Below are positions 2,352 to 58,408 of a stretch of DNA of 64,000 nt, in pieces. The position numbers and the translations under genes were made by a program. Every line of letters starts with the position of its first letter. Position 1 is the first letter of the stretch. The stretch is taken from positions 48,425 through 112,424 of the IMG/VR virus record IMGVR_UViG_3300042691_027855; one strand, 5' to 3'. The notes beneath the pieces were generated by a model. It made no database searches and was not told the DNA's origin. It saw only the letters and a list, made by a program, of their open reading frames with translations. Source of the stretch: a virus.

Positions 2352-3067
2352 TGATGGCCCCATTTAACACGTGAAACGCTTCAAGAACGCACAGAGGTGG
2401 GGGCTCGTGGCTTCCAGCAGGGCTCGCATATTGGCCGGTAAGAGTGTTTCATCCAGCAGCACCAACGGCAAGACAGCCCTCAAGAAAGCACCACACATTA
2501 ACGACTGTATGAGTGGCCGTGTCGGGAACTTAACGACGTATTCCATACGACTCCGGTGTCTAGAACGGAGGGTGCTTCGTTCTCCCTAGGGCGATCAAAG
2601 AACGCGGGACGGTGATTGCAGACCGCAGCCCGATGCTATGCCCGGACATTTCCGGACCACGCAGAGCGGGAACGAGGCAGGTGTCTCTACGTTGTACGTT
2701 CCACAAGTGTCACCAACTCTGTCGTACGTTCCACAAGTGTCACCGACAGTTCAACTCCTTTTACTTTCCTTACCTCGGCAGGGTGCCGCTACCTCCCTTG
2801 TTGCGGCGTGTGTGTACGTTTCGTACATCTGGGTACGTTACTAGACCCAGGATACTGCTTACTGTACCCGCATCAAGTCGTGAGTGTCGTTAACGCTTGA
2901 GCATGGAATGGGAGTTCACCCATTCATAACCTATTTGGGAGCCTGAACTATGACTCTTACAGACCGTTTGGCATTTTTCTCGCTCCCAGACTACGCAAAC
3001 TGCCAAATGGCATCCGGGCACAAGCCTACTCCCCCCTCGTCTAGTAGGCATCGCATGGACGAGGGAA
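2352..3067. other. 716-nt gap inside the tRNA array
   Basis: I find no tRNA and no convincing coding frame here. The one distinct feature is a pair of 21-bp direct repeats at 2694-2714 and 2724-2744. Several short frames exist on both strands but none has a ribosome site and protein-like composition together. Confidence 0.45.
2694..2744. repeat. 21-bp direct repeat, period 30
   Basis: The sequence starting gtacgttccacaagtg and ending tcacc occurs at 2694-2714 and again at 2724-2744. Further GTACGTT words follow near 2815-2840. Role unknown; it could be a protein-binding array or a duplication scar. Confidence 0.75.
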
Positions 3068-3139
3068 CTGGCCCGGCAGGGATCGAACCTGCGACAACTT
3101 GATTAACAGTCAAGCGTTCTACCGCTGAACTACAGGCCA
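3068..3139 (-). tRNA. tRNA-Asn(GTT)
   Basis: Anticodon loop CTGTTAA between CTTGA and TCAAG; acceptor TGGCCTG/CGGGCCA; discriminator G. Confidence 0.92.
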
Positions 3140-3140
3140 T

Positions 3141-3217
3141 TGGTGGCGGAGGCAGGATTCGAACCTGCGACCTCCAGGTTATGAGCCTGGCGAGCTACCG
3201 GACTGCTCTACTCCACG
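3141..3217 (-). tRNA. Initiator-type tRNA-Met(CAT)
   Basis: Anticodon loop CTCATAA between CCAGG and CCTGG. The D arm (AGAGCAG...GTAGCTCG) matches bacterial initiators, and the first acceptor position is an unpaired C1xC72, the feature that marks initiators for formylation. CCA is encoded. The anticodon stem lacks the full three G-C pairs of E. coli fMet. Confidence 0.88.
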
Positions 3218-3327
3218 ATGAAGCCCCTGGTAGAAGTAACCGTTGCCAGCTGGACGCACTTACTCCTGATTTTTACAACGTTAAAGACCCCAGAGGTAGC
3301 GGCCTGCGGTTGTGCCCCGAAGGGCAA

Positions 3328-3401
3328 TGGGAACTGACGGATTTGAACCATCGACACCACGGGCTTCAACCGTGTGCTCTACCAATCTGAGCTAAGTCCC
3401 C
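3328..3401 (-). tRNA. tRNA-Phe(GAA)
   Basis: Anticodon loop TTGAAGC between CACGG and CCGTG; acceptor GGGGACT/AGTTCCC; discriminator A. A C(UUCG)G hairpin lies at 3313-3326. Confidence 0.93.
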
Positions 3402-3405
3402 GAGG

Positions 3406-3477
3406 TGGAACCGACAAGACTTGAACTTGTGACCGCTCGGTTATCAGCCGAGTGCTCTACCACTGAGCTACGGTTCC
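3406..3477 (-). tRNA. tRNA-Ile(GAT)
   Basis: Anticodon loop CTGATAA between CTCGG and CCGAG; acceptor GGAACCG/CGGTTCC; discriminator A. Confidence 0.93.
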
Positions 3478-3508
3478 GTAGGTTAACTCCCTCCCTGGGA
3501 GTTACCAA

Positions 3509-3580
3509 CGACCCTAACGGGATTTGAACCCGTGATACCACCGTGACAAGGTAGCGTGATCACCACTTCACTATAGGGTC
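3509..3580 (-). tRNA. tRNA-Asp(GTC)
   Basis: Anticodon loop TTGTCAC between CTACC and GGTGG; acceptor GACCCTA/TAGGGTC; discriminator G. Confidence 0.93.
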
Positions 3581-3602
3581 AAGACGAGGTTTGTAACCTC
3601 TA

Positions 3603-3674
3603 TGGGTCGTCTGAGATTCGAACTCAGGGCCAATCGGTTAAAAGCCGAGTGCTCTACCGCTGAGCTAACGACCC
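3603..3674 (-). tRNA. tRNA-Lys(TTT)
   Basis: Anticodon loop CTTTTAA between CTCGG and CCGAT; acceptor GGGTCGT/ACGACCC; discriminator A. Confidence 0.93.
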
Positions 3675-3732
3675 GTGGACTCTTGGCTGGGGCGATGCGT
3701 CCGTCATTAACCAGCTGTTCACTGATTACCAA

Positions 3733-3886
3733 GAGGCGGGCGTCCCTAGTCCCCGCGATTTGCCAGAACTGATGAAGTGACCGTCCGACCGAAGTCATTA
3801 CCCACCTCTCATTGAGGCGGGCGTCCCTAGTCCCCGCAATTTGACAGAACTGATGAAGTGACCGTCCGACCGAAGTCATTACCCAC
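3733..3886. repeat. Tandem duplication, two ~73-bp copies, 81-bp period
   Basis: Copies at 3733-3805 and 3814-3886 differ at only about two bases. Each can fold: GCGGG pairs with CCCGC, and TGAC pairs with GTCA. The repeat sits between tRNA-Lys and tRNA-Glu and is not tRNA-like. It may be a structured spacer, a small RNA or a recent slippage duplication. Confidence 0.85.
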
Positions 3887-11300: not shown

Positions 11301-14069
11301 TCAGTATGTGCCGCCGTCAATCGTGTTGGTCCAAGTCGGAACGTTTGAGGAGTTAACCGACAAGATTTGACCGACGCTATTGGTGGCATCCCATGAGCCA
11401 GCGGCTGTAACACCAACTGCGCTCGTACCGTTCCCGTAAACAACTCCGTTAGTCGTTAGGGTCGTTGTACCGGTGCCACCGTTTCCAACCGCAACAGTTC
11501 CACTAACGTTTGCCGCCGTTCCCGTAATGTTCGAGTCGGTGAATGCAACCGTCTTGGTTGCCGTCCCGTTATAGAACTTGATCGCTCCGGAGTTGTTCCA
11601 GAAGTCCCCGTTCGCAGGAGCTGATGGGTCTGCAACACCAGTTCCAAGGTTAACGCTCGCGGTAGAAGCTGAAGCATTCACCAGGGTGATCTTGCCAGTC
11701 ATCGTGCCGCCACTTCTTGCCAGCGCAGCGTTGGCTAGATCGTAGGAGGTCTTGACTGAGTTCGGTGAAGCAGCAGTTGTTGTCGAAGTTGAGGCAACTG
11801 AATCGGTAATCTGCAGAATACCTGCGACCGAAGTTGTGCCACCCCGTACATCTGCCGAAACAGTTCCCGTTACGCGACCGTAGGCATCAATCGTTTGGGA
11901 CTGAACAAAGTTGATTCCAGCAGTTCCCGACGTGTTAGTTTGAGAAACTGTTGCAAGGTCAACTTGGTCCGAACCGTTGATGACAGTGCGGCCTGCGGCA
12001 ACGTTGACGTCAAGGGTGTTGCCTGTTTTGGTAAGACCGTTTCCAGCTGTAATTTGACCCGCACCCGAGAACTGAGTGAACGAGATTGAGTCTCCGGTAA
12101 AGGTTGTGTAACCCGCTCCCGAAATTCCCATCCGAATCGGAGAGTTCTGAGTTTGAACGAATCCGTTTCCGCCGTTAGTTGTACCCGACGTTACAAAGAT
12201 GAAGTCACCAGGCGCGATTTCCCCGGTTGGTGCGTTGTCGAAATCAGTAGCACGTGTCCAGACACCGTTTGCGCCGGTACCGATCGTAGTAATCGTGTAA
12301 ACGCCGTTGTACGCAGCAGTTGTGTGATCTTTGACAAGGATTCTCAGTCCTGTTGCGGCGAATGTTCCAGAACCGTCTAGGCTGTTCGGCGTTCCAGTTA
12401 GTGTTGCCCCAACACCAGGGTTACCATTAACACCGATGCTCAGACCAGTTCCGTTAGTGAGAACGGCGTTCACACCGCCATAAGTGGCCGAAACTTTAAC
12501 TTGATTACTTGCCGGAACAGCCGTGACGTAATAAGTCGTGTTGGCGGTAAGACCGGTTCCTGTTACAGTGTTACCGGTGCGAAGCTGCGAGTTAACCAGA
12601 AGACCGTGATCGGCACTGAAGGTGATTGTATCTGTGCCCGTGATCGTGGTGATTGTGAGCGCAGTACCACCCGACACATAGGTGTAAGAAACTGCCGTGG
12701 TAGTGGCGTAATCTGCGGCAGCATGAACGTTTAGGCTTTGGGCAATGGCGTCAGCGTACTGCTTTGTGACAGCATCGTTGGCAGCAATAGGTGCGCCAAC
12801 CAGGGTGATTCTGGCACCGTTGACATCAACTACACCAGTGCCGTTGGGAACAAGGTTGACGTTCGTGTTAGTTCCACCTGCGGTGAATGTTAGAGCGCCA
12901 GTGCCGGTGATTGAACCGGTGGTTGTTCCAGTACCGCCCCGGTTGACGGCAATCGTTCCCGCGTTCCACGTACCTGAAGTAATCGTACCAACGGTAGCGA
13001 GACTGGAAAGTGCTGTTACACCCGTGTCAACCAGTGTACCGGAAGTGGGAAGCGTAACGTTGGTGTTACCTGTAACAGTCAGTGTCGTTGTGAAAGCGCC
13101 GGAAGTTGTTAGGTTCCCGCCCAGCGTAATCGTTCTTGCGCCGTTGTTGACGCCGGTTCCGCCGTAAGTCGGGCTGACAACTGAGCCGTTCCAGGTGCCG
13201 GAGGTAATGGTTCCAACGGTTGCCAGACTGGAAAGGGATGTAACAGCGGTGTTAACTAGCGTACCCGTGGTAGGCAGAGTTACGTTGGTCGCACCAGTTG
13301 TCGTAAGAGTTAAGGCGTTTGCGCCAGAAGTAGAGAAGTTTCCAGCGATGTCAATGTTGCCACCCAGACTTAGAGTTCTGTTGGCATTCTCGACATCAAT
13401 TGTCAGAGCGCGAGCGGCGGTCAGGGCGACAGAAGAAGTTGCACCGATTGAAACGTCGAACGCGGCGCTGGTGTCGCGAAGCGCCAGAGCTCCAAGACCG
13501 GTAATAGTTTGCAAACCGGCGATCGTGGTTGCTGTGCCGCCAAGCGATACGGCTGTTGAACCCAGAGTTACTGAGCTGTTGACAAGTTTGCTGTTGGGGA
13601 TTGAGTTGTTTGCGATCGACAGCGAAACAGTAACGTTGCTGCCTGAAGGTTGAGTCGCAGTGGAAGACAGAATCGTTCCGTCACCCGTGATCGAGAAAGT
13701 ATTACCTGTCGCAAAAGTGAAGCTTCCTGAGTTGCCGGTGACTGTGAAGGTGGAAGCAACGGCGCTAACCGCAGTGCGCACATAAGCTGTCGAAGCAGCA
13801 TTTGTGCTGTTATCCGACTGCAGTTGAGTGGGAACAGTAATTGTTGCCCCGGTGAAGTTTTTGGTGCCTGTGATTGTTGCGTTCGCACTCAGTGAAATGA
13901 AAGCACCAGCACCACCGATGGCAATGATCGAGGTCGCGTTACCCTCTGAGTTTCCTGAACCGTAGTACAGGATTGCATCATTTTCGTTAAACGCTAATTC
14001 AGCGTTAGCGAGGGTCGAGGGGGCACCTGAAGAGCCTGCTCGCCGTTTGATTCTGATAGTGTTGGCCAT
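11301..14069 (-). CDS. Long tail fibre protein, 922 aa
   Basis: N-terminal module (IRIKRRAGSSGAPSTLANAE) of the same type as its neighbour, followed by many degenerate repeats such as VTNVTLPTTGTLVNT and LATVGTITSGTWN that recur at least twice each. There is a middle domain (about residues 440-640) with DHTTAAYNGVYTITTIG-like strands and a C-terminal TNGVVYGNGTSAVGVT tip. This is a repetitive trimeric beta fibre. The repeats make it recombination-prone. Confidence 0.8.
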   Translation of the reverse strand: MANTIRIKRRAGSSGAPSTLANAELAFNENDAILYYGSGNSEGNATSIIAIGGAGAFISLSANATITGTKNFTGATITVPTQLQSDNSTNAASTAYVRTAVSAVASTFTVTGNSGSFTFATGNTFSITGDGTILSSTATQPSGSNVTVSLSIANNSIPNSKLVNSSVTLGSTAVSLGGTATTIAGLQTITGLGALALRDTSAAFDVSIGATSSVALTAARALTIDVENANRTLSLGGNIDIAGNFSTSGANALTLTTTGATNVTLPTTGTLVNTAVTSLSSLATVGTITSGTWNGSVVSPTYGGTGVNNGARTITLGGNLTTSGAFTTTLTVTGNTNVTLPTSGTLVDTGVTALSSLATVGTITSGTWNAGTIAVNRGGTGTTTGSITGTGALTFTAGGTNTNVNLVPNGTGVVDVNGARITLVGAPIAANDAVTKQYADAIAQSLNVHAAADYATTTAVSYTYVSGGTALTITTITGTDTITFSADHGLLVNSQLRTGNTVTGTGLTANTTYYVTAVPASNQVKVSATYGGVNAVLTNGTGLSIGVNGNPGVGATLTGTPNSLDGSGTFAATGLRILVKDHTTAAYNGVYTITTIGTGANGVWTRATDFDNAPTGEIAPGDFIFVTSGTTNGGNGFVQTQNSPIRMGISGAGYTTFTGDSISFTQFSGAGQITAGNGLTKTGNTLDVNVAAGRTVINGSDQVDLATVSQTNTSGTAGINFVQSQTIDAYGRVTGTVSADVRGGTTSVAGILQITDSVASTSTTTAASPNSVKTSYDLANAALARSGGTMTGKITLVNASASTASVNLGTGVADPSAPANGDFWNNSGAIKFYNGTATKTVAFTDSNITGTAANVSGTVAVGNGGTGTTTLTTNGVVYGNGTSAVGVTAAGSWDATNSVGQILSVNSSNVPTWTNTIDGGTY

Positions 14070-15355
14070 TAATAGGTTCCCCCATTGGTTATGTCAAGAA
14101 GAGTGGTGTCGGTTTTCCAGAATGTGGTTGCAGGGTCGTACACAAGTGTACTTTGATTCGTTAAGCCGGTAGTGTCGACATCCGGTAAGTTGTTGATGGG
14201 AACGCCACCGCCACCCGCCGCGATGTAATCTTGAACCCACTGGATCGTAACAAAAGCTAACGGGTCAGCCGGAATTGCGTAACCAGCGAGGATTGGTCCT
14301 TCAAAAGTTCCACCCTGCGTTGTAACCATTTCCTGGGGGTACGGTACAACGGAAATCCACTGACCCCCGTTAACGTCAACATACCACATATTCAGGTTGC
14401 TGGTTTCGGCGTCGTACCAAAAATCCCCGGGAGAGGGGTTCGGTGGCGGCGAAGAACTGATGGTTGTTCTTGTGCATCCGGAGGGATTTGAAGACACTTC
14501 GGTCAGCATGATCCAAGCGTCCGGGGCACCGGAATTATCTCGAAGGTACAAAACGTTTTGAATCGTGTTGTACCAAAGAGCACCGTTCACAGGATTGGCT
14601 GGTTCAGTAGCACTGATAAGAACTGGGGGAGGAGCCCTTCCCGGTTCGGGAGTAATTGCAATCCACACACCACCTTGTGGGCCTAGAGTCCAAATCTTAA
14701 GCAGGTCGCTTACGGTGTCGAACCAAAGGTAGCCAACCAAAGGATTAGCCGGTGGAGTGGCACTTACGAAAACAGGACTTTCCTCCTCAGGGGTCCCTTG
14801 AGAAATGAGGATCCAGCTCGATGTGCCAAACGGGGCCTCTTTCCAGACTTTTAACTCGTTTGTATTATCGTTGAACCATAGTGCACCTTGTTGCGGATCG
14901 GGCGGAGGTGAAACGCTAACCGTAACTAAGTCGCAACAAGACGTTGAAGAGGAGGCAGCATTTTCCCAGGTGTTGCCTCCGGGGGTGCTGACGCGAACCT
15001 TCAATACCCCTTCAAGGAGGTCAAACCACAGGAAACCTGGCTCCGCATTCTGAGGTGCAGAAGAACTGATCAGAACCGGCGGCTCTGGCGTAGGGATTGA
15101 TGACGTGATGTCAATCCAACGGGGTGCTATTTCCCCATTCAAAAATCCCCAAATCTTCAGAGTTTCGTCAAGTGTGTCGTACCACAATGCCCCCTGTAAA
15201 GGGTTCTTGGGTGCGGCGGCACTAAAATATACGGGTGCTGAGGAAGATGTCGGAACGTTGACAGCAAGCCACTGAGTCCCCGTCCACTTCCAGGATCTTC
15301 CGTTAAACGTATATACTTGGCCGAGAGTGGGATTTGATGGAAAATTGTATGCCAT
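14069..15355 (-). CDS. Repeat-module tail protein, 428 aa
   Basis: Contains six copies of a ~50-residue module: V-x-S-x-x-x-P-x-N-P-x-x-G-x-LW(Y/F)D, then about eight residues, LKIW or similar, a short linker and W-I. A related half-module (NGRSWKWTGTQW) opens the protein. Trp-containing repeats of this kind occur in carbohydrate-binding phage tail proteins. Its TAA overlaps the ATG of the long fibre gene (TAATG). Likely a fibre connector or binding protein. Confidence 0.7.
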   Translation of the reverse strand: MAYNFPSNPTLGQVYTFNGRSWKWTGTQWLAVNVPTSSSAPVYFSAAAPKNPLQGALWYDTLDETLKIWGFLNGEIAPRWIDITSSIPTPEPPVLISSSAPQNAEPGFLWFDLLEGVLKVRVSTPGGNTWENAASSSTSCCDLVTVSVSPPPDPQQGALWFNDNTNELKVWKEAPFGTSSWILISQGTPEEESPVFVSATPPANPLVGYLWFDTVSDLLKIWTLGPQGGVWIAITPEPGRAPPPVLISATEPANPVNGALWYNTIQNVLYLRDNSGAPDAWIMLTEVSSNPSGCTRTTISSSPPPNPSPGDFWYDAETSNLNMWYVDVNGGQWISVVPYPQEMVTTQGGTFEGPILAGYAIPADPLAFVTIQWVQDYIAAGGGGVPINNLPDVDTTGLTNQSTLVYDPATTFWKTDTTLLDITNGGTY

Positions 15356-16025: not shown

Positions 16026-16047
16026 GTGTCGTTTTCTAACTGAGTTT

Positions 16048-16077
16048 ATTATAGCCCGCCTTGCCGGCGGAGTAAAG
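16048..16077 (-). promoter_or_regulatory. Early-type promoter with hairpin spacer
   Basis: CTTTAC, then a spacer holding the perfect inverted repeat CCGCC-GGCAA-GGCGG, then TATAAT. Palindromes CGGTTAACCG and ACGGTTTACCGT lie just upstream. Confidence 0.7.
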
Positions 16078-16123
16078 GGCGGTTAACCGGTCTAGCAGGT
16101 ACGGTAAACCGTCCAAACTGTGT

Positions 16124-16690
16124 TCAATACTGTGTGTTGAAGAAGAAAGTTTGAAATAGTCTTCCGTTATGCAGATTATTGCCAAAATAATCGACAGAAG
16201 CATGGAATAGACTACCCGGATACAGTACCAGCCTGTTGTAAATGTTTCCCACTCTATCAACAACTTCCCATTTTGTGTAATCTCTTGCATCTTCACCATG
16301 GTCCACTTTGTCAATTGAAAATCTTTCTCGAGATGCCTTATGCATATACAAGGCAGTACCTCCACTAACAGGGGCATCTGGAGTTAGATAACAAACACCC
16401 GCCCACATATTATGGTAATCTGAATGTATCCAAGTTCTGTCATTTGCCGTGCAGAGTTGAAATGCACCTGTATACCCATCACCGTTCGAGTCAAGTAACC
16501 AATCAGTCACCTCGCCACCAGCTTGTGACACTAGAGAACTGATAACACTTTTAACACTATCGTTTAAAAAAGATTTTGTCCGAAACCCTGGATAATTTCC
16601 TCTAACAGAAAATTCTTGCGATAACGCAAAACTTCTCACCTCATCAGGGTTGTTGTAAAAATCGTCCACAATAATCAGATTAACTTTCAT
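16124..16690 (-). CDS. 2OG-Fe(II) oxygenase-like protein, 188 aa
   Basis: Shows the iron-binding facial triad of the cupin-type 2-oxoglutarate oxygenases: WIHSD (H-x-D) near residue 90 and a distal His in LYPGSLFHAS, followed by GRLFQTFFF with the Arg expected to bind 2-oxoglutarate. The N-terminus (VDDFYNNPDEVRSFAL) is typical of the phage DUF6445-type branch. The ATG overlaps the upstream TGA (ATGA). AT-rich compared with its surroundings. Substrate unknown; coupling to the glycosyltransferase suggests a shared modification pathway. Confidence 0.7.
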   Translation of the reverse strand: MKVNLIIVDDFYNNPDEVRSFALSQEFSVRGNYPGFRTKSFLNDSVKSVISSLVSQAGGEVTDWLLDSNGDGYTGAFQLCTANDRTWIHSDYHNMWAGVCYLTPDAPVSGGTALYMHKASRERFSIDKVDHGEDARDYTKWEVVDRVGNIYNRLVLYPGSLFHASVDYFGNNLHNGRLFQTFFFNTQY

Positions 16691-17439
16691 TTCAACATTG
16701 CCCCCGTTTTTGAACAATACTTGGTGTCAGGGTTAATGTACTTAAACCCTTCCCAACCAGGCTCATTTTCTGCAACTCTTTTGCCATGAAAATACTCGCC
16801 TATGTGATTTACCATTATGCCCCCTTCGGACGTTTTTAACAACCCTGCCCCAATCTTATACTTGTCCAGTAAATACTTTGCAATTACATATTCCGAGGGG
16901 TTAAATCCTGTTTCTTCGAAGATGGGTTCTTTAGCGATCCATGCCGGATATACGGACATTAACATCCAGAAGTACGGAGTTGCTTTCTCATACCGGAAAT
17001 TCTTGAAAAGTGAATCATCTTCTTTTGGCCCAACCTCCTCAGTCTCATGCGGATACCAATTATTTCTCTTCAGCTGAATTTGAGAAAGTGTGTTATCTTG
17101 TTGAAGAAGTTGAATCAAATCTAACACTTTCAACTGCGGGATCAGTTCCACATCGTCTTCTTGATGTAAAATATAATCATAATCTCTTTCTTTTACGATG
17201 TCAAAAAGCTGTTTCCAAGTTTTAGTGATTCCCAGATTTTCCTCATGGAGAATAATCTCATTGTACCCGTGGGAAAATACAAACTCTTTCAAAAACTCAT
17301 CATTTCTCCCTGACGGATAGTCATCTATAAAAAGATGATGTACATCTACCCCACTGAAATCAAACTTTCTATTGGCTTCAAAAGTTTTTTGCAGAAACTC
17401 TAGTCTGTTGGTGGAAAAAATTACATGAAGTAGTTTCAT
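16687..17439 (-). CDS. Family 2-like glycosyltransferase, 250 aa
   Basis: GT-A architecture: N-terminal beta strand KLLHVIFSTNR, NLGITKTWKQLF (acceptor-loop pattern of GT2), and an ILHQEDDVEL motif where Glu-Asp-Asp would hold the metal and nucleotide sugar. The ATG at 17437-17439 aligns the first strand; upstream codons are probably untranslated. The region is visibly more AT-rich than psbA or the fibre genes, a sign of separate origin. It may add sugars to virion proteins or host surface. Confidence 0.7.
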   Translation of the reverse strand: MKLLHVIFSTNRLEFLQKTFEANRKFDFSGVDVHHLFIDDYPSGRNDEFLKEFVFSHGYNEIILHEENLGITKTWKQLFDIVKERDYDYILHQEDDVELIPQLKVLDLIQLLQQDNTLSQIQLKRNNWYPHETEEVGPKEDDSLFKNFRYEKATPYFWMLMSVYPAWIAKEPIFEETGFNPSEYVIAKYLLDKYKIGAGLLKTSEGGIMVNHIGEYFHGKRVAENEPGWEGFKYINPDTKYCSKTGAMLK

Positions 17440-17456
17440 TGACTTTTTTCTGCTAG

Positions 17457-17485
17457 TGGAAAAAGAAAGGGGTCCGAAGACCCCC
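17457..17485 (-). terminator. Terminator of psbA
   Basis: Minus strand GGGGTC-TTCG-GACCCC followed by TTTCTTTTTC. A stable C(UUCG)G-type stem 21 nt past the psbA stop. Confidence 0.9.
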
Positions 17486-17505
17486 ACGATTTAATCGTGT
17501 TTGTT

Positions 17506-18591
17506 TCAACCGATCGAGGGAGCTGTTAGAGCGACTGGAGTCAGCTCGGCGGAAGCCAAATCAAGCGGGAAATTATGAGCATTGCGCTCGTGCATCACTT
17601 CCATTCCAAGGCCAGCGCGGTTTAGAATGTCAGCCCAAGTTGGAATAACACGGTTCTGGCTATCAACCAAGGATTGGTTGAAGTTGAAGCCGTTCAGGTT
17701 GAAGGCCATGGTCGAGACGCCTAGCGCCGTGAACCATATTCCGACCACAGGCCAAGCAGCAAGAAAGAAATGAAGAGAACGGCTATTATTGAAGGATGCA
17801 TACTGGAAGATCAAACGACCGAAGTAGCCATGGGCTGCAACAATGTTATAGGTTTCTTCTTCTTGTCCGAACTTGTAACCGTAGTTCTGAGAAATATCCT
17901 CAGTCGTTTCACGAATCAGGCTGGAAGTCACCAGCGAACCGTGCATAGCACTGAACAAAGAACCACCAAAAACACCGGCAACACCCAGCATGTGGAAAGG
18001 GTGCATCAGAATGTTGTGCTCAGCTTGGAAAACGAGCATGTAGTTGAAGGTTCCGCTGATTCCGAGTGGCATACCATCGGAGAATGAACCTTGTCCGAAA
18101 GGATAAACCAGGAAAACGGCGGTTGCTGCTGCTACCGGAGCAGAGTAAGCAACAAAAATCCAAGGACGCATACCCAGGCGGTAGCTAAGCTCCCATTCAC
18201 GGCCCATGTAGCAAAAAACGCCGAGAAGGAAGTGGAAGACAACCAGTTGGTATGGGCCTCCGTTGTACAACCATTCATCCAAGGAAGCAGCTTCCCAGAT
18301 AGGGTAGAAGTGCAGGCCAATAGCGTTACTGGACGGCACAACAGCGCCAGAAATGATGTTGTTCCCATACAGGAGAGAACCAGCGACTGGTTCACGAATT
18401 CCGTCGATATCGACAGGAGGAGCGGCGACGAACGCGACAATAAAGCAAATAGTTGCGGCAAGCAACGTCGGGATCATCAGTGTACCAAACCAACCTACGT
18501 AGAGGCGGTTATTGGTTGAAGTGACCCATTGGCAGAAAGACTCCCAGGAATCAGCGAGGGGAGAACGACGAGTTAAAACAGAAGCGGTCAT
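17506..18591 (-). CDS. psbA: Photosystem II D1 protein
   Basis: Full-length D1 (361 aa), the reaction-centre subunit that turns over fastest under light. All key residues are present: the five-helix core, YSAPVAAA around the redox Tyr, [10 protein letters not shown] and later His ligands for the non-haem iron, and the C-terminal [21 protein letters not shown], which supplies Mn-cluster ligands and the processing site. The residue equivalent to position 130 is Glu (CYMGREWEL), so it is the high-light D1:2 type. Phage copies keep photosynthetic electron flow running during infection. It has its own promoter and terminator, so it is a monocistronic unit. Confidence 0.98.
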
Positions 18592-19877: not shown

Positions 19878-20030
19878 TCAGTGGGCCATCAAAGCATAAA
19901 CTTCTTCAGTTGTTAGCCCGCCATTTTCAAGCACGTCTTGCAAGATTCGGTCCGCTTCATCTTCCGCCTCGTCAGTGCCCTTGCGAAGCAGCTCCTTCCG
20001 GCGAATCATCTCTTTCAGGTTGTCGCTCAT
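19878..20030 (-). CDS. Small acidic helical protein, 50 aa
   Basis: ATG at 20028-20030 overlaps the kinase-like gene stop as ATGA. The product is a charged amphipathic helix (KEMIRRKELLRKGTDEAEDE), then a helix-turn (LTTEEVYALMA). The coupling to the kinase-like gene hints at a joint function. Confidence 0.55.
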   Translation of the reverse strand: MSDNLKEMIRRKELLRKGTDEAEDEADRILQDVLENGGLTTEEVYALMAH

Positions 20031-20854
20031 TGTAACCTACCAAGTTCTTGAATGTACTCTTCCCCGAGACGGGTTCTTTTGTTCTTCGCCGCCTGGCTAT
20101 ATCCCTGAATTTCCTTGTACCTGCTAAGGTATCGATTTACCATGCTCACGTAAGGATCGCTTGCGAGTTCTGGATTTTTCCAGTCTACAAGACTTCCGAT
20201 TTTGGAAAGATCTTGCATGACGCGAGAAGGCTGTCGAGAGACTGGAACGCTCAAGCCGTAATCAACAAGTTGAACATTGTTGCCGCTCACGATGAACTGC
20301 AGAGCGTGAAGATCGCCGTGGGCGTAACCCAGCTTGTGCAGATCGCGAATCGCCGCCGACGCCTTTTTTGCCTGTGAAGCATTCATGACAGGCTCATTCT
20401 CTCCGCGAGAGTAACCCTCCCAGAGAGGTTTGCCTTTGGCTGCCGCCATCTCGATATGCTCGGCCGAATGGGAATATATCTTGGGTCCGTGACCCAGTTC
20501 ACCCATCTTCTTCGCCAGCTCAACCTCAAACTCCCCGAACTCCCCCTTCTTCCCATCTTTGCCAACCAGCAGTTGTTTCACAACTCGTTTGCCGTCCGGA
20601 CTGATTGAAACCTTTCCGTAGTTGCCTTCAGCGAGAGGTTTCCACTTGTCGTACCCTACTTTAGTCGAGGAATTTTCGAATGTTCGACGATTTCTGTCAT
20701 ATGCCTTCGACATTCTTGCCAGTAGTTCCGCCGTCTTTCCCACTTCTTTCGAAGACGAAAAAGCGACCCGACAACTGCGCTGAGACGCAATACATGTCGA
20801 GCCGCAGGATTTACCTCGGACACACCTTCTTTTACGTCGATTCCTTCCCACCAA
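20027..20854 (-). CDS. Protein-kinase-fold protein with Cys motif, 275 aa
   Basis: Residues about 10-30 hold CVRGKSCGSTC and SQRSC, a Cys-Gly motif seen in several cyanophage proteins. A kinase-like domain follows: glycine loop LAEGNYGKVSISPDG, the likely ATP-binding Lys in KRVVKQLL, a Glu-rich helix, catalytic loop YAHGDLHALQFIV (HGDLHxxQ, with Gln for the usual Asn) and metal-binding VDYG in place of DFG. The length fits a minimal kinase. It may phosphorylate host or phage proteins or, given the Asn-to-Gln change, be weakly active. Preceded by a GGGTAAAA block, so probably made late or packaged. Confidence 0.7.
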   Translation of the reverse strand: MVGRNRRKRRCVRGKSCGSTCIASQRSCRVAFSSSKEVGKTAELLARMSKAYDRNRRTFENSSTKVGYDKWKPLAEGNYGKVSISPDGKRVVKQLLVGKDGKKGEFGEFEVELAKKMGELGHGPKIYSHSAEHIEMAAAKGKPLWEGYSRGENEPVMNASQAKKASAAIRDLHKLGYAHGDLHALQFIVSGNNVQLVDYGLSVPVSRQPSRVMQDLSKIGSLVDWKNPELASDPYVSMVNRYLSRYKEIQGYSQAAKNKRTRLGEEYIQELGRLQ

Positions 20855-20882: not shown

Positions 20883-21395
20883 TCAGCTTTCCTGGTAGAC
20901 GGACACAAACACCGTGCCCTGCTTTACCAGGGGCAACAGTTTGTGCAGGAGATCCTCATTATACATTCGAACGCAACCGTATGTTGGAACCAGACGTTGC
21001 TTCGGGAGCCAAGCCCCAGGCCAGCCATTGGCTGAACCGCCTCCGTGGATCATAATTCCCGCCCGACCGAACTTGGCCTCCTGGCGCTCCAACTCAACAA
21101 GATCGAATGAAACCCAGCCGTACGCCATCAGAGTGCGATCGTAAGGTGGATTCGCACCTTCTTTGGCGTAGTCGTTGTACACGGTTCCGATCTGGTAGAG
21201 ACCCGGCGGTGTATCCGTGTTGGTATATTTATACTCGTAGTCGCTGCCTTGGCCGCGAGCCAGGCAATTCACGTCCCACAGCTTTCTGCCACCGTAGGCG
21301 TAGGCAGTCGCTTTTTCTGTAATGTCGTTAACAATGATGTGCGTGTCGCCTTCTTTGAAGCCGAAATCTTGAGGTTTTCTGTTTGGGCCGATCAT
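20883..21395 (-). CDS. L,D-transpeptidase (YkuD-type), 170 aa
   Basis: The catalytic signature is complete: IMIHGGG with the conserved His, then about 20 residues later VPTYGCVRM with the active Cys followed by the Arg (pattern S/T-x-G-C-x-R). YkuD enzymes cross-link or edit peptidoglycan stem peptides. In a phage it may remodel the wall at entry or resist superinfection. The ATG at 21395 is the only in-frame Met start; an earlier TTG would lie within the terminator of the upstream gene. Confidence 0.85.
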   Translation of the reverse strand: MIGPNRKPQDFGFKEGDTHIIVNDITEKATAYAYGGRKLWDVNCLARGQGSDYEYKYTNTDTPPGLYQIGTVYNDYAKEGANPPYDRTLMAYGWVSFDLVELERQEAKFGRAGIMIHGGGSANGWPGAWLPKQRLVPTYGCVRMYNEDLLHKLLPLVKQGTVFVSVYQES

Positions 21396-21399
21396 AATC

Positions 21400-21420
21400 A
21401 AAAGAGGGGCCAAAGCCCCC
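21400..21420 (-). terminator. Terminator after 70-aa coiled-coil gene
   Basis: Minus strand GGGGC-TTTG-GCCCC then TCTTTT. It lies only 5 nt upstream of the transpeptidase ATG. Confidence 0.65.
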
Positions 21421-49712: not shown

Positions 49713-50345
49713 TTAAGTGAAGATAGCAAAGTAAAGATGATAAGGGTTGATTGGAGAACCATTATCGGACCGATAAGTTTGCAGATCCGCAAAATTGACA
49801 GTGGATAACTGGCTCACATTGATCACAGCGATTATCCCACTTGAGCTGCCTGTAACTATTGTTGTGTTTGCGTTTGACAAGGGGTTTGTGAAGTAAACTT
49901 GAGTACGCCCTGAGCCAAAATCAGTCGTGTATGATATGTTTAAGCCACCTGCTACTAGAGGGGGATTATAGATTGTGACGTCCTCGAAAATAAGGTTTCC
50001 GTATGCTTCTAAGTAACTCGGACCAGTTGCCCCCTGGGGACCCTGAGCTCCTTGTGGACCTGCAATTCCTTGGAATCCTTGCTCTCCTTGACCTCCTTGA
50101 GGACCTGCAATTCCTTGCTCTCCTTGAGGTCCTTGTGGACCCGCAATTCCTTGACCCCCTTGAGCTCCTTGTGGACCTGCAATTCCTTGCGCCCCTTGAG
50201 CTCCTTGTGGACCCGCAGGGCCGGGAGATGGATCCGAGGTAATGCTCGTGATTCTGCCGTCAGATGTTACGGTGAGGTTCGGATTAATGTAGTTTCCAGC
50301 TGTTACCCCTGTATCATCCAGGAGTTGAACTTTGTCGAGTGCCAT
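49713..50345 (-). CDS. Collagen-like tail fibre, 210 aa
   Basis: The start [19 protein letters not shown] is a short attachment module shared with the gene at 54432-55547. Residues about 40-105 are about 20 G-x-y triplets ([19 protein letters not shown]), predicting a collagen triple helix, followed by a beta C-terminal domain. Such fibres form trimers that bind hosts. Confidence 0.8.
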
Positions 50346-50550: not shown

Positions 50551-51333
50551 TTATAAGATGGGGGTAGGGACAATCTCGACCGTTTTGAACTGCAACTGGA
50601 AAGCCACAGAGCTGGCCCCCGTGTTTACCACTCTAAAGAAAGTTAGGTACCCCCCGCAATAAACCGTTGGCAAGGGTGCGAAGTCGATTGTCTCTTCTGC
50701 CGTGGTCGTTACAACTTCGGCATAGAAACCGGTTCCGCTTAAAGGAGGAATTCCACCAGGGGATGTTCTCGTATCAGCGGTTCTTGCTGTTGAGTCCCCG
50801 TAAACGCGAATCCACATAGGCAAGTCCGAAGAAATTGCCACCAAGAGGAATAAACCGCCCAACGCAAGTTCGAAGTCTTGCACCCCTCCCGGAGGAAGTA
50901 CGCTTGTTGTGAAGTCCGTGAGCGTATATTCTGACCCTACCCCGGGAGGCCCAACAGGTCCCGTAGGTCCTTCCGGCCCCGGAGAACCAGTTGGTCCGGG
51001 TTCACCAGGAGTCCCATCATTTCCAGGAGTGCCAGTTGGCCCCGGCGAACCTGTAGGCCCCGGTGAACCAGGAGTCCCAGGAGTACCCGGAGTGCCAGTT
51101 GGCCCCGGCGAACCTGTAGGCCCAGGTGAACCAGGAGTCCCGGGAGTTCCCGGCGTTCCAGAAGGTCCTGGCGGTCCCGGTGGTCCTACAGGCCCAACCG
51201 GTCCAGGTCCGCTTGAAAGCAACTCCCAAGTGTCAAATTGCTCGTTATACTGATATTGATCTACACCTACGATGGGGGGATCAGGGTAGATCTGTCCGTT
51301 GTAAGCAGGCGACGGGAAAATTAGAGTTGGCAT
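50551..51333 (-). CDS. Collagen-like tail fibre, 260 aa
   Basis: Residues about 40-130 are a long run of G-x-y triplets dominated by GPT, GSP and GTP, with Pro often in the Y position. Flanked by a short N-terminal attachment segment and a ~130-aa C-terminal beta domain with the [14 protein letters not shown] turn. Collagen-like trimeric fibre; the Pro-rich Y positions make it a plausible prolyl-hydroxylase target. Confidence 0.8.
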
Positions 51334-56707: not shown

Positions 56708-58408
56708 TCAGAACTTGATGCAGGGGAGAAGTGCAACGTTGCGAGGACGAGTTTCAGTTCCACCGGTAGCATTTATTGCTTGTGAAGTGTTATACGTCTG
56801 CACCGAGTTAGCGCCGCCACCAGCTCGTCCAGTGGATCCGAAGTCGAAACCGTAGGCATATGTGGTATCGTGAGTGTGACTCTCAAAGTCATCCAGCTGA
56901 GAACTACCAAAAACTCGGCCTGGGTCAACTCCACGACCGGCGTCCCAACCTCGAATGAATTCGCCTCTCAAGTCCGGAAGATTGAATGTTGTGCTCCCGT
57001 CCCCATTACCGTAAGTGGTTCCGATAACAGCGAACAAATTACTATAGGTGGTTCGTGAGACAGCCGCTCCGTTACACACAACGTAGCCAATAGGTGCTGT
57101 AGAGGCTGACGACCAAATAACGGTTCCGGTAACTGAACCTCCACCACCGCTGCCACTACCGCTTATGCACATAATGTACGCAAGGGCGTAGTAAGGCGGA
57201 AGGTTTTTGTTGGTTCCAGATTCCCCTGAATCGCCTGTAGTTACAGTACGCTGTAGATTTGCTGCTCTTGAACCTACGCCAATAGTTATTTCAGCGCCAC
57301 TTCCTTGGTCGTCAACAACAAACCTCGCAAAAGACGTTCCAGCCGGGGTAACCGGGTGGTCGTGATTTACGACTACTGCATCTTTAGACCCTCCGATGTC
57401 TGTCGGACTGTAATTACTGCCAGCACCGACAATGAATCTGTCCCGCAAGTCCGGTGTTCCGTTTGTACCGTCGCACAGTTGCCAACCGCCCGGAATGTTT
57501 GAGATCGCCCCGGACCACATGGAAATCAGACCGGTGGGAACGCCCGCAATAGCAACGGTGTTTCCAACAAATCCGACGAAATAATCTCCGGTTGGCGGAG
57601 CAGTCGAGAAGGTTACTTGGCTCAGCGCAGAGTTCCACGAAAATGCTGCCGTGGATTGAACAGCGCCACCGATAAACAAAACTAAATCGTCTGCGGTTAC
57701 GTTGGTGGGCAGCGTTGTTCCGCCCAGGTACGTCAGAGTGAAAGTAACTGTTGAGCCGTTGAAACCACCACTAATGTTATCAAGACGTTCAAGACCACCC
57801 GCGCCAGTTGGCCCTGTGGGACCGGTTGGTCCGGCGGCTACTTGACTCGCAACCCAACCCACAAAGTAATCTCCTGCAGGTGGCGCACTTGTGAACGTAA
57901 CCTGGCTCAGACCAGCGTTCCATGTGAAAGCCGTCCCTGCAAGTTGAATTGCACCGCCAATAAACAGAACTAAATCTTGCTGCAGAACTGTGACAGGAAG
58001 GTTTACTCCAGCAGATGTCAGAGTGAAAGTAGTTTGAGTTCCGTTAAACGAGATACTGTCAATATATTTTGCGTTAAGTGCGCCTGATCCCCCGCCGGAC
58101 CCTGGAGGTCCAACTGGGCCAGGTGTACCAGGAGTACCAGGCGTTCCCGATGGACCGGAGGGACCAGGCGGCCCGGAAGCTCCTGTGCCTCCTGTTGGCC
58201 CCGGTGCTCCCGGAGGGCCTGGCGGTCCTGCCGGGGGAACAAGTTGCCAGCTTCGCACACCCGCCGCCGTACTAACTAACCCGTAGCCATCAACTGGCGG
58301 AACTCCAAGGTTGGGCTCTGTGTCGGCCAAACCAAGAATTTCGTAACGAGTAGCGTTCGCTAAAGTTGGGGGAACGGGAATTACCCTTCCATCGAAAAAT
58401 CCTGCCAT
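56708..58408 (-). CDS. Tail-collar fibre with collagen-like segment, 566 aa
   Basis: N-terminal domain, then about 15 G-x-y triplets ([19 protein letters not shown]), a repeated pair of ~100-aa domains ([20 protein letters not shown] and [20 protein letters not shown]) and two tail-collar domains ([36 protein letters not shown] with [13 protein letters not shown]). Chimeric fibre that docks receptor tips at the collar. Confidence 0.8.

Follow-up and report, generated by a model that had tools for sequence, protein, structure and literature searches.

Linked genes for a putative glycosyltransferase and a putative oxygenase behind psbA in a relative of Synechococcus phage S-CBWM1

A gene pair in the slot behind psbA

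We analysed a window of 64,000 nucleotides, bases 48425-112424 of a record of 112,424 bases (IMGVR_UViG_3300042691_027855) from a virus of cyanobacteria. Among cultured phages, Synechococcus phage S-CBWM1 is its closest relative by DNA primase (57.9%). On the minus strand of the window, psbA (17506-18591; identified by profile as phrog_182, E 2.5e-197) is followed by two genes. The first (16690-17439, running from the ATG at 17439 to a stop codon that ends at 16687) codes for a putative glycosyltransferase of 250 amino acids with a predicted GT-A fold (hereafter GT), and the second (16124-16690, ATG at 16690) for a putative 2OG-Fe(II) oxygenase of the DUF6445 family, 188 amino acids long (hereafter OX). 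The stop of GT and the start of OX share the sequence ATGA at 16687-16690, a 4-nt overlap that recurs in 6 of the 35 relatives counted; another 15 overlap by 11 nt. A first-pass annotation of this DNA had described a glycosyltransferase and oxygenase pair adjoining psbA, translationally coupled and more AT-rich than its surroundings. The genes are indeed arranged in this way, and their overlap, which is what can be seen, fits the translational coupling that we infer from it. The difference in composition is also real: the stretch 16124-17439 has a GC content of 0.3875 (38.8%) against 51.0% in the rest (z -6.8), and it falls outside the range of the genome, as none of 60,054 segments of equal length lying clear of it was as AT-rich (mean 0.510, sd 0.018, minimum 0.456). 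Taken as ORFs with their longest starts, GT and OX have GC contents of 0.386 and 0.397, compared with a mean of 0.511 (sd 0.028, minimum 0.447) in 63 other ORFs, chosen mechanically and at least 100 amino acids long.

The spacer between psbA and GT (17440-17505, minus strand) contains a terminator-like hairpin (GGGGTC-TTCG-GACCCC, then T-rich) and is unlike those in relatives without the pair. When sought in viral_contigs as an exact pattern, it was found in no contigs other than L320 and L321, which are the two relatives with the pair, and this search recovered no donor. Downstream of the pair lies a fibre-like gene of 428 amino acids (14069-15355, minus strand), which relatives also have. 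Two further ORFs of the window, of 275 (20027-20854) and 176 amino acids (20883-21413), had no PHROG match; the first presumably carries kinase-like motifs, and the second has what we take to be the look of an L,D-transpeptidase. Kinase-annotated genes are found downstream of psbA in S-CBWM1.

Six contigs that share the flanking genes of the window were compared, two with the pair (3300031857_000903 and 3300020570_000019) and four without it. In L150 (3300032213_002475), which is 97.7% identical to the window over psbA and the upstream sequence, 59 nt stand in place of window positions 16114-17505 (1,392 bases), and in L139 (3300049846_001206) psbA directly abuts the shared block. In the other two the slot is filled by an ORF matching the endonuclease family phrog_681: 229 amino acids in L136 (3300043448_000837, L136:4631-5320; 4.9e-7) and 211 in L138 (3300032221_000294, L138:4962-5597; 8.5e-11). 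These ORFs are 49% identical over 186 amino acids and reach in Pfam at most NUMOD3 at 0.028; a search of cultured phages at E 0.001 with that of L136 found nothing. The block coding for its last ~26 codons is still present in L150 and in the window, where it forms a remnant at 16036-16114 (minus strand). The psbA of L136 is itself split, at about 3019-3814, by a group I intron (Rfam RF00028, E 1.5e-16) holding a 207-aa HNH-like ORF (weak matches), while the psbA of the window is intact.

On the other side, the breakpoint appears to lie within psbA. The window and L150 differ at 6 positions in the first 1,026 nt of the gene and at 17 in the last 60, so that identity falls from 99.4% in what we regard as the resident part (17566-18591, minus strand) to 71.7% in the remainder (17506-17565, minus strand), and a breakpoint model gives a log-likelihood gain of 38.8. 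These last 60 nt were probably exchanged together with the cassette. The mismatch-free breakpoint interval, psbA nt 970-1026, includes the point where the psbA of S-CBWM1 carries its second group I intron; with the annotated last exon 69 nt long, this is nt 1017. Its position would fit an exchange begun at a homing site, a coincidence that is only suggestive because this region of psbA is also conserved.

Free-standing endonucleases beside psbA have precedent, F-CphI of cyanophage S-PM2 being a known case (PMC6083498), and both mobile gene cassettes and homing endonucleases were already described in cyanophages by Sullivan et al. 2010 (PMC3037559). The homing slot at psbA in S-PM2 and the intron-bearing psbA of S-CBWM1 recall the loci compared here, the common features being a free-standing endonuclease beside psbA and group I introns within that gene. 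They differ in that the slot of the window is occupied by GT and OX as cargo, the endonuclease-like ORF being reduced to its tail; moreover, the ORF of the slot matches phrog_681, and its likeness to F-CphI, like its activity, is putative. From these comparisons we conclude with high confidence that GT and OX jointly replaced the content of the psbA slot.

Families and folds of the two proteins

OX matched DUF6445 (PF20043) with 51.8 bits (cut-off 24; E 1.4e-13), and a scan of Pfam returned only this family and 2OG-FeII_Oxy_5. Residues H89, D91, H163 and R177 are invariant in 54 aligned sequences, and we take them to be the Fe/2OG ligands (HxD...H triad and 2OG-binding Arg). The AlphaFold model (pLDDT 92.9) was ranked by VIA closest to OGFOD1 (4nhx; Z 14.2, rmsd 2.6, 158 aligned), followed by PHD2 (Z 14.1), Pseudomonas putida P4H (Z 13.9) and SnoN, an epimerase of nogalamycin synthesis (Z 13.6), which amount to ties. 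The top Foldseek match was HygX, crystallised with hygromycin B. OX thus resembles, as modelled, Fe(II)/2OG oxygenases with a prolyl-hydroxylase-like fold, and we treat it as a putative member of that group. The DUF6445 domain also occurs at the C-terminus of a 621-aa TPR protein of S-SCSM2R (L230:3699-5561) annotated as CcmH/NrfG. In S-CREM1 (L236:1233-6723), eight annotated 2OG oxygenase genes and a JmjC gene stand in a row, and one of them matches OX. The open-access literature that we searched does not mention DUF6445.

GT scored 22.6 bits against Glycos_transf_2 (PF00535), just under the cut-off of 23.3, and a PF00535 search of the genome at E 0.001 does not list it. We did not assign it to GT25 (PF01755), against which it scored 11.4 bits (cut-off 24), nor to the galactofuranosyltransferases, for which a PDB profile match reached E 0.083 only. 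Residues E94, D95 and D96 are invariant in 44 aligned sequences. In VIA comparisons its AlphaFold model (pLDDT 94.9) ranked first with human LH3 (6tex; Z 15.4, rmsd 3.5, 196 aligned, LH3 residues 296-523, presumably the middle domain), then with GnT-I (1foa; Z 14.9, rmsd 3.6, 204 aligned), the mimivirus collagen glucosyltransferase R699 (9dyt; Z 14.8, rmsd 3.1, 182 aligned) and hyaluronan synthase (Z 14.5). LH3, GnT-I and R699 are ties, at 11-14% identity in the VIA rows, and the top Foldseek match was SpsA. The predicted structure therefore resembles a GT-A fold. Profile searches of the PDB gave no sequence match to LH3/PLOD or R699 up to E = 1, a result compatible with distant kinship. Searches by tblastn in 50,697 phage records returned no match with the GT of the window (E 1e-5) or with that of L308 (E 0.01). 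In genome_contigs, 64 pattern hits yielded no confirmed relative, a weak absence given that two short patterns were used, and on this weak ground we set aside a host origin of GT.

Linkage and history of the pair

We took as a linkage sample the best 80 of 221 confirmed GT loci, on 80 contigs, and counted genes within 200 bases as adjacent. OX adjoins GT in 74 of these best 80, in the order GT-OX in 48 and OX-GT in 26, so the two genes do not occur independently of each other in relatives. The six loci with no adjacent OX comprise L269, where OX lies 654 bases from GT; L293-L295, a single lineage with an identical partner, in which a PF13640 2OG oxygenase (7.9e-6) overlaps the stop of GT in place of OX; and L308 and L313, where no oxygenase was recognised near GT among the neighbours scanned. 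Conversely, L092 carries OX without GT. Two contigs have a natural GT-OX fusion in a single open frame (L006, 456 amino acids; L038, 442 amino acids), and since they are sisters in both trees the fusions may go back to one event. Among cultured phages, 36 records contain a match to OX, and in three of the seven whose surroundings we viewed (S-SSM7, Sf-FS3 and DSL-LC02) a GT-annotated gene lies within two genes of it; there is none in the other four. S-SSM7 and Sf-FS3 resemble the window in that a GT gene and the OX homologue overlap, some 3.5 kb upstream of psbA; they differ in that the partner is a GT25 (PF01755), that OX is 34.9% and 36.1% identical, and that the glycan cluster is larger.

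The linkage in both orders, the fusions, the PF13640 substitute and the overlap with GT25 genes all argue that GT and OX form a functional module, which we consider very probable; L308, L313, L269 and L092 weaken the case somewhat. The linkage in both orders, the fusion and the PF13640 substitute also lend strength to the earlier suggestion that the pair could build an unusual modification. Many lake phages keep the two genes together and two of them have them fused, which suggests that these phages hydroxylate something and then attach a sugar to it.

The GT-OX order is also found in contigs of 30-37% GC. Among the 43 AT-rich loci L004-L046, psbA lies upstream of the pair in 27, on the stretches fetched; three have only a weak match upstream (37-42%, probably psbD), and 13 have no psbA upstream on the fetched stretch, several of which end just before GT. 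In the GT tree the window stands beside L065 (96/88) inside a set of 18 rows (97/96), and in the OX tree inside a set of 26 rows (99/95), within which its position is weak; its sister rows differ between the two trees. Each gene nests in a clade of AT-rich phages. The first-pass annotation had read the composition as a sign of a recent joint transfer. That the transfer was joint is borne out by this nesting, the empty site and the two-sided breakpoints, but the data do not show it to be recent: the best sampled homologues beyond the window's own lineage are 81% (GT) and 82% (OX) identical, and the GC3 of the two genes (0.396 and 0.324) is intermediate between that of the putative donor clade (0.200 and 0.187) and the mean of the other window genes (0.528). 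Because of this intermediate GC3, the transfer looks either old enough for composition to have adjusted or derived from an unsampled donor. The end branches of the window measure 0.27 for GT and 0.30 for OX (medians 0.08 and 0.1). Among relatives the median dN/dS is 0.110 for GT (397 pairs) and 0.119 for OX (332 pairs), with three usable pairs per gene that include the window.

Possible reactions and acceptors

Our preferred reading, to which we give a probability of roughly 0.45, is that OX would hydroxylate an acceptor and GT would then put a sugar on the same acceptor, in the simplest case at the hydroxyl just formed; both the order of these reactions and the donor sugar are presumed. The acceptor would most likely be a virion protein, a tail fibre or a collagen-like fibre, as gene neighbourhoods and folds suggest. 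The module was most likely acquired as a unit, replacing the content of a psbA slot held in two relatives by endonuclease-like genes, whose part in the exchange is conjectural.

That the acceptor is a protein is supported by the structural ranks, which place OX with OGFOD1, PHD2 and P4H, and GT with LH3, GnT-I and R699 (ties). It is weakened by the presence of HygX, SnoN, hyaluronan synthase and SpsA among the close folds, as fold alone is no proof of function. LH3 offers one of the nearest analogies. Its single chain has the GT domains ahead of the hydroxylase, the order also found in the L006 and L038 fusions; LH3 and the mimivirus enzymes share with the pair a GT-A fold and, in the scheme proposed here, a 2OG hydroxylase acting on one acceptor. 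R699 has been assayed as a collagen glucosyltransferase (PMC9546862). The analogy differs in several respects: the pair has no sequence-level match to these proteins in the PDB and 11-14% identity in VIA, OX belongs to DUF6445, and the collagen-like triplets of the window contain Lys in 0 of 59, with Pro at X in 28 and at Y in 22. LH3-type chemistry is unlikely with repeats that carry hardly any Lys, and we dropped literal collagen-lysine modification as the leading reading.

Candidate virion acceptors are present in the window. They include, all on the minus strand, a possible acceptor in the 922-aa tail fibre gene (11301-14069), a collagen-like protein (50551-51333; Pfam Collagen 1.5e-14) with triplets free of Lys and a second collagen-like protein (49713-50345). 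A collagen-like domain match is also found at 56708-58408. Outside the window, the remaining 48 kb of this record, which may be incomplete, gave no further collagen match. We searched 12 records and found collagen-like domains in eight, seven of the ten that bear the pair and one (G009) of the two that lack it. The matches in 7/10 pair-bearing records and the median dN/dS of about 0.1 are in favour of the preferred reading. The correlation as such (7/10 versus 1/2 records) decides nothing, since the three records that bear the pair but gave no collagen match are fragments, 31-72 kb long, and since G008, by an estimate from gene spacing, probably ends before the homologous region.

A virion acceptor gains further support from a second group of relatives, in which the cassette consists of GT1, a ~250-aa protein, OX and GT. 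At 26 of 69 loci it stands next to neck genes, which it precedes at 25, and collagen-like fibres lie upstream in some, as with the long collagen-like tail fibre of L114. Against this, the cassette adjoins dCMP deaminase in 31 of the 69 (a total in which eight contigs are counted twice and L287 and L291 belong to the first group), and G009 has a collagen-like gene without the pair. No member of the psbA/psbD family was found in 11 records with this arrangement or related to it (G006, G007, G010 and G012-G019), which are possibly fragments.

The main rival is decoration of a glycan, in which GT would add a sugar to a surface or capsule-type glycan and OX would hydroxylate its sugar or lipid, altering the host surface, for example against superinfection. 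Hydroxylation of a sugar within a glycan is known from the Kdo hydroxylases. Some AT-rich pairs start an operon that fits glycan assembly and weakens the protein-acceptor reading: L035 and L044 share the gene order GT, OX, UDP-galactopyranose mutase, a GT2-like gene, a second DUF6445, a GT2/methyltransferase and a glutaredoxin-like ORF (the family assignments come from L035 alone, with the mutase confirmed for L044 too and glutaredoxin recognised by eye; L035 mutase PF03275, 6.9e-46). On L035:7319-11332 the mutase stands between two DUF6445/GT sets, and L024 has a PF13640 oxygenase in its place. The OX homologues of S-SSM7 and Sf-FS3 lie among fucosyltransferase genes, the slot behind psbA of S-CBWM1 holds HlyD and a cellulose-synthase-like GT2, and HygX and SnoN are among the close folds of OX. 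Iyer et al. 2021 considered several roles for cyanophage clusters of GTs and 2OG oxygenases, one being that they make or decorate outer polysaccharides (PMC7824862), which agrees with this rival. The likeness to those clusters lies in GTs standing alongside 2OG oxygenases in cyanophages (PMC7824862); here, in contrast, we have a two-gene module with a conserved overlap and a fusion, and a GT with no tblastn match in the 50,697 phage records (E 1e-5). The PF03275 search that detects the mutase of G003 and G004 (2 of 12 records searched) found none in the window's record, which may be incomplete, and no second DUF6445 was found there. Nor did PF00535 list any GT in that record, a weak absence because the same search misses the GT of the pair. 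The direct fusion of GT to OX and the placing of OX by VIA among protein hydroxylases tip the balance slightly towards a shared protein acceptor, and we regard glycan decoration as somewhat unlikely.

The remaining explanations are less probable still. A two-step hydroxylation and glycosylation of a non-virion protein of host or phage, for example a translation factor, would reprogramme the cell; it draws on the OX model ranking first with OGFOD1, PHD2 and P. putida P4H, the last also crystallised with EF-Tu (4iw3), and on a cassette that is not always near virion genes. No GT partner is known for hydroxylases of the OGFOD1, PHD2 and P4H type, and we consider this reading improbable. Hypermodification of DNA, with OX making a hydroxymethyl base and GT glucosylating it, would follow a logic of 2OG oxygenase and GT known from phage and trypanosome DNA, but it is very hard to credit for a DUF6445 protein that ranks with protein hydroxylases and for which Pfam lists DUF6445 and 2OG-FeII_Oxy_5 only. 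Least probable of all is that OX is a virion structural protein and GT an unrelated neighbour: we rejected the 'minor coat protein' label of phrog_1644, which OX matches at E 2.4e-37, because the presumed Fe/2OG residues are invariant in the 54 sequences, and the fusion and order-independent linkage with GT also speak against it.

Returning to hydroxylation and glycosylation of a virion protein, a broader version is possible, though doubtful: that phages possess a compact system of hydroxylation-primed protein O-glycosylation, comparable to LH3 but with no sequence similarity to it that can be detected, fused in some, with the oxygenase or the GT partner exchanged in others, and spreading as cargo via the endonuclease slot behind psbA. 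Our searches of the open-access literature found nothing on this GT family, its linkage to DUF6445 or a cargo swap at psbA, which does not imply absence from print. With a linked and sometimes fused GT as partner, the OX family gains a reaction that can be tested. The empty site next to psbA illustrates how cyanophages may exchange cargo: psbA would lend its tail as a homology arm, in a slot shared with endonuclease-like genes. If the broader version were true, genes that give the virion a new coat would be using a photosynthesis gene as their landing site.
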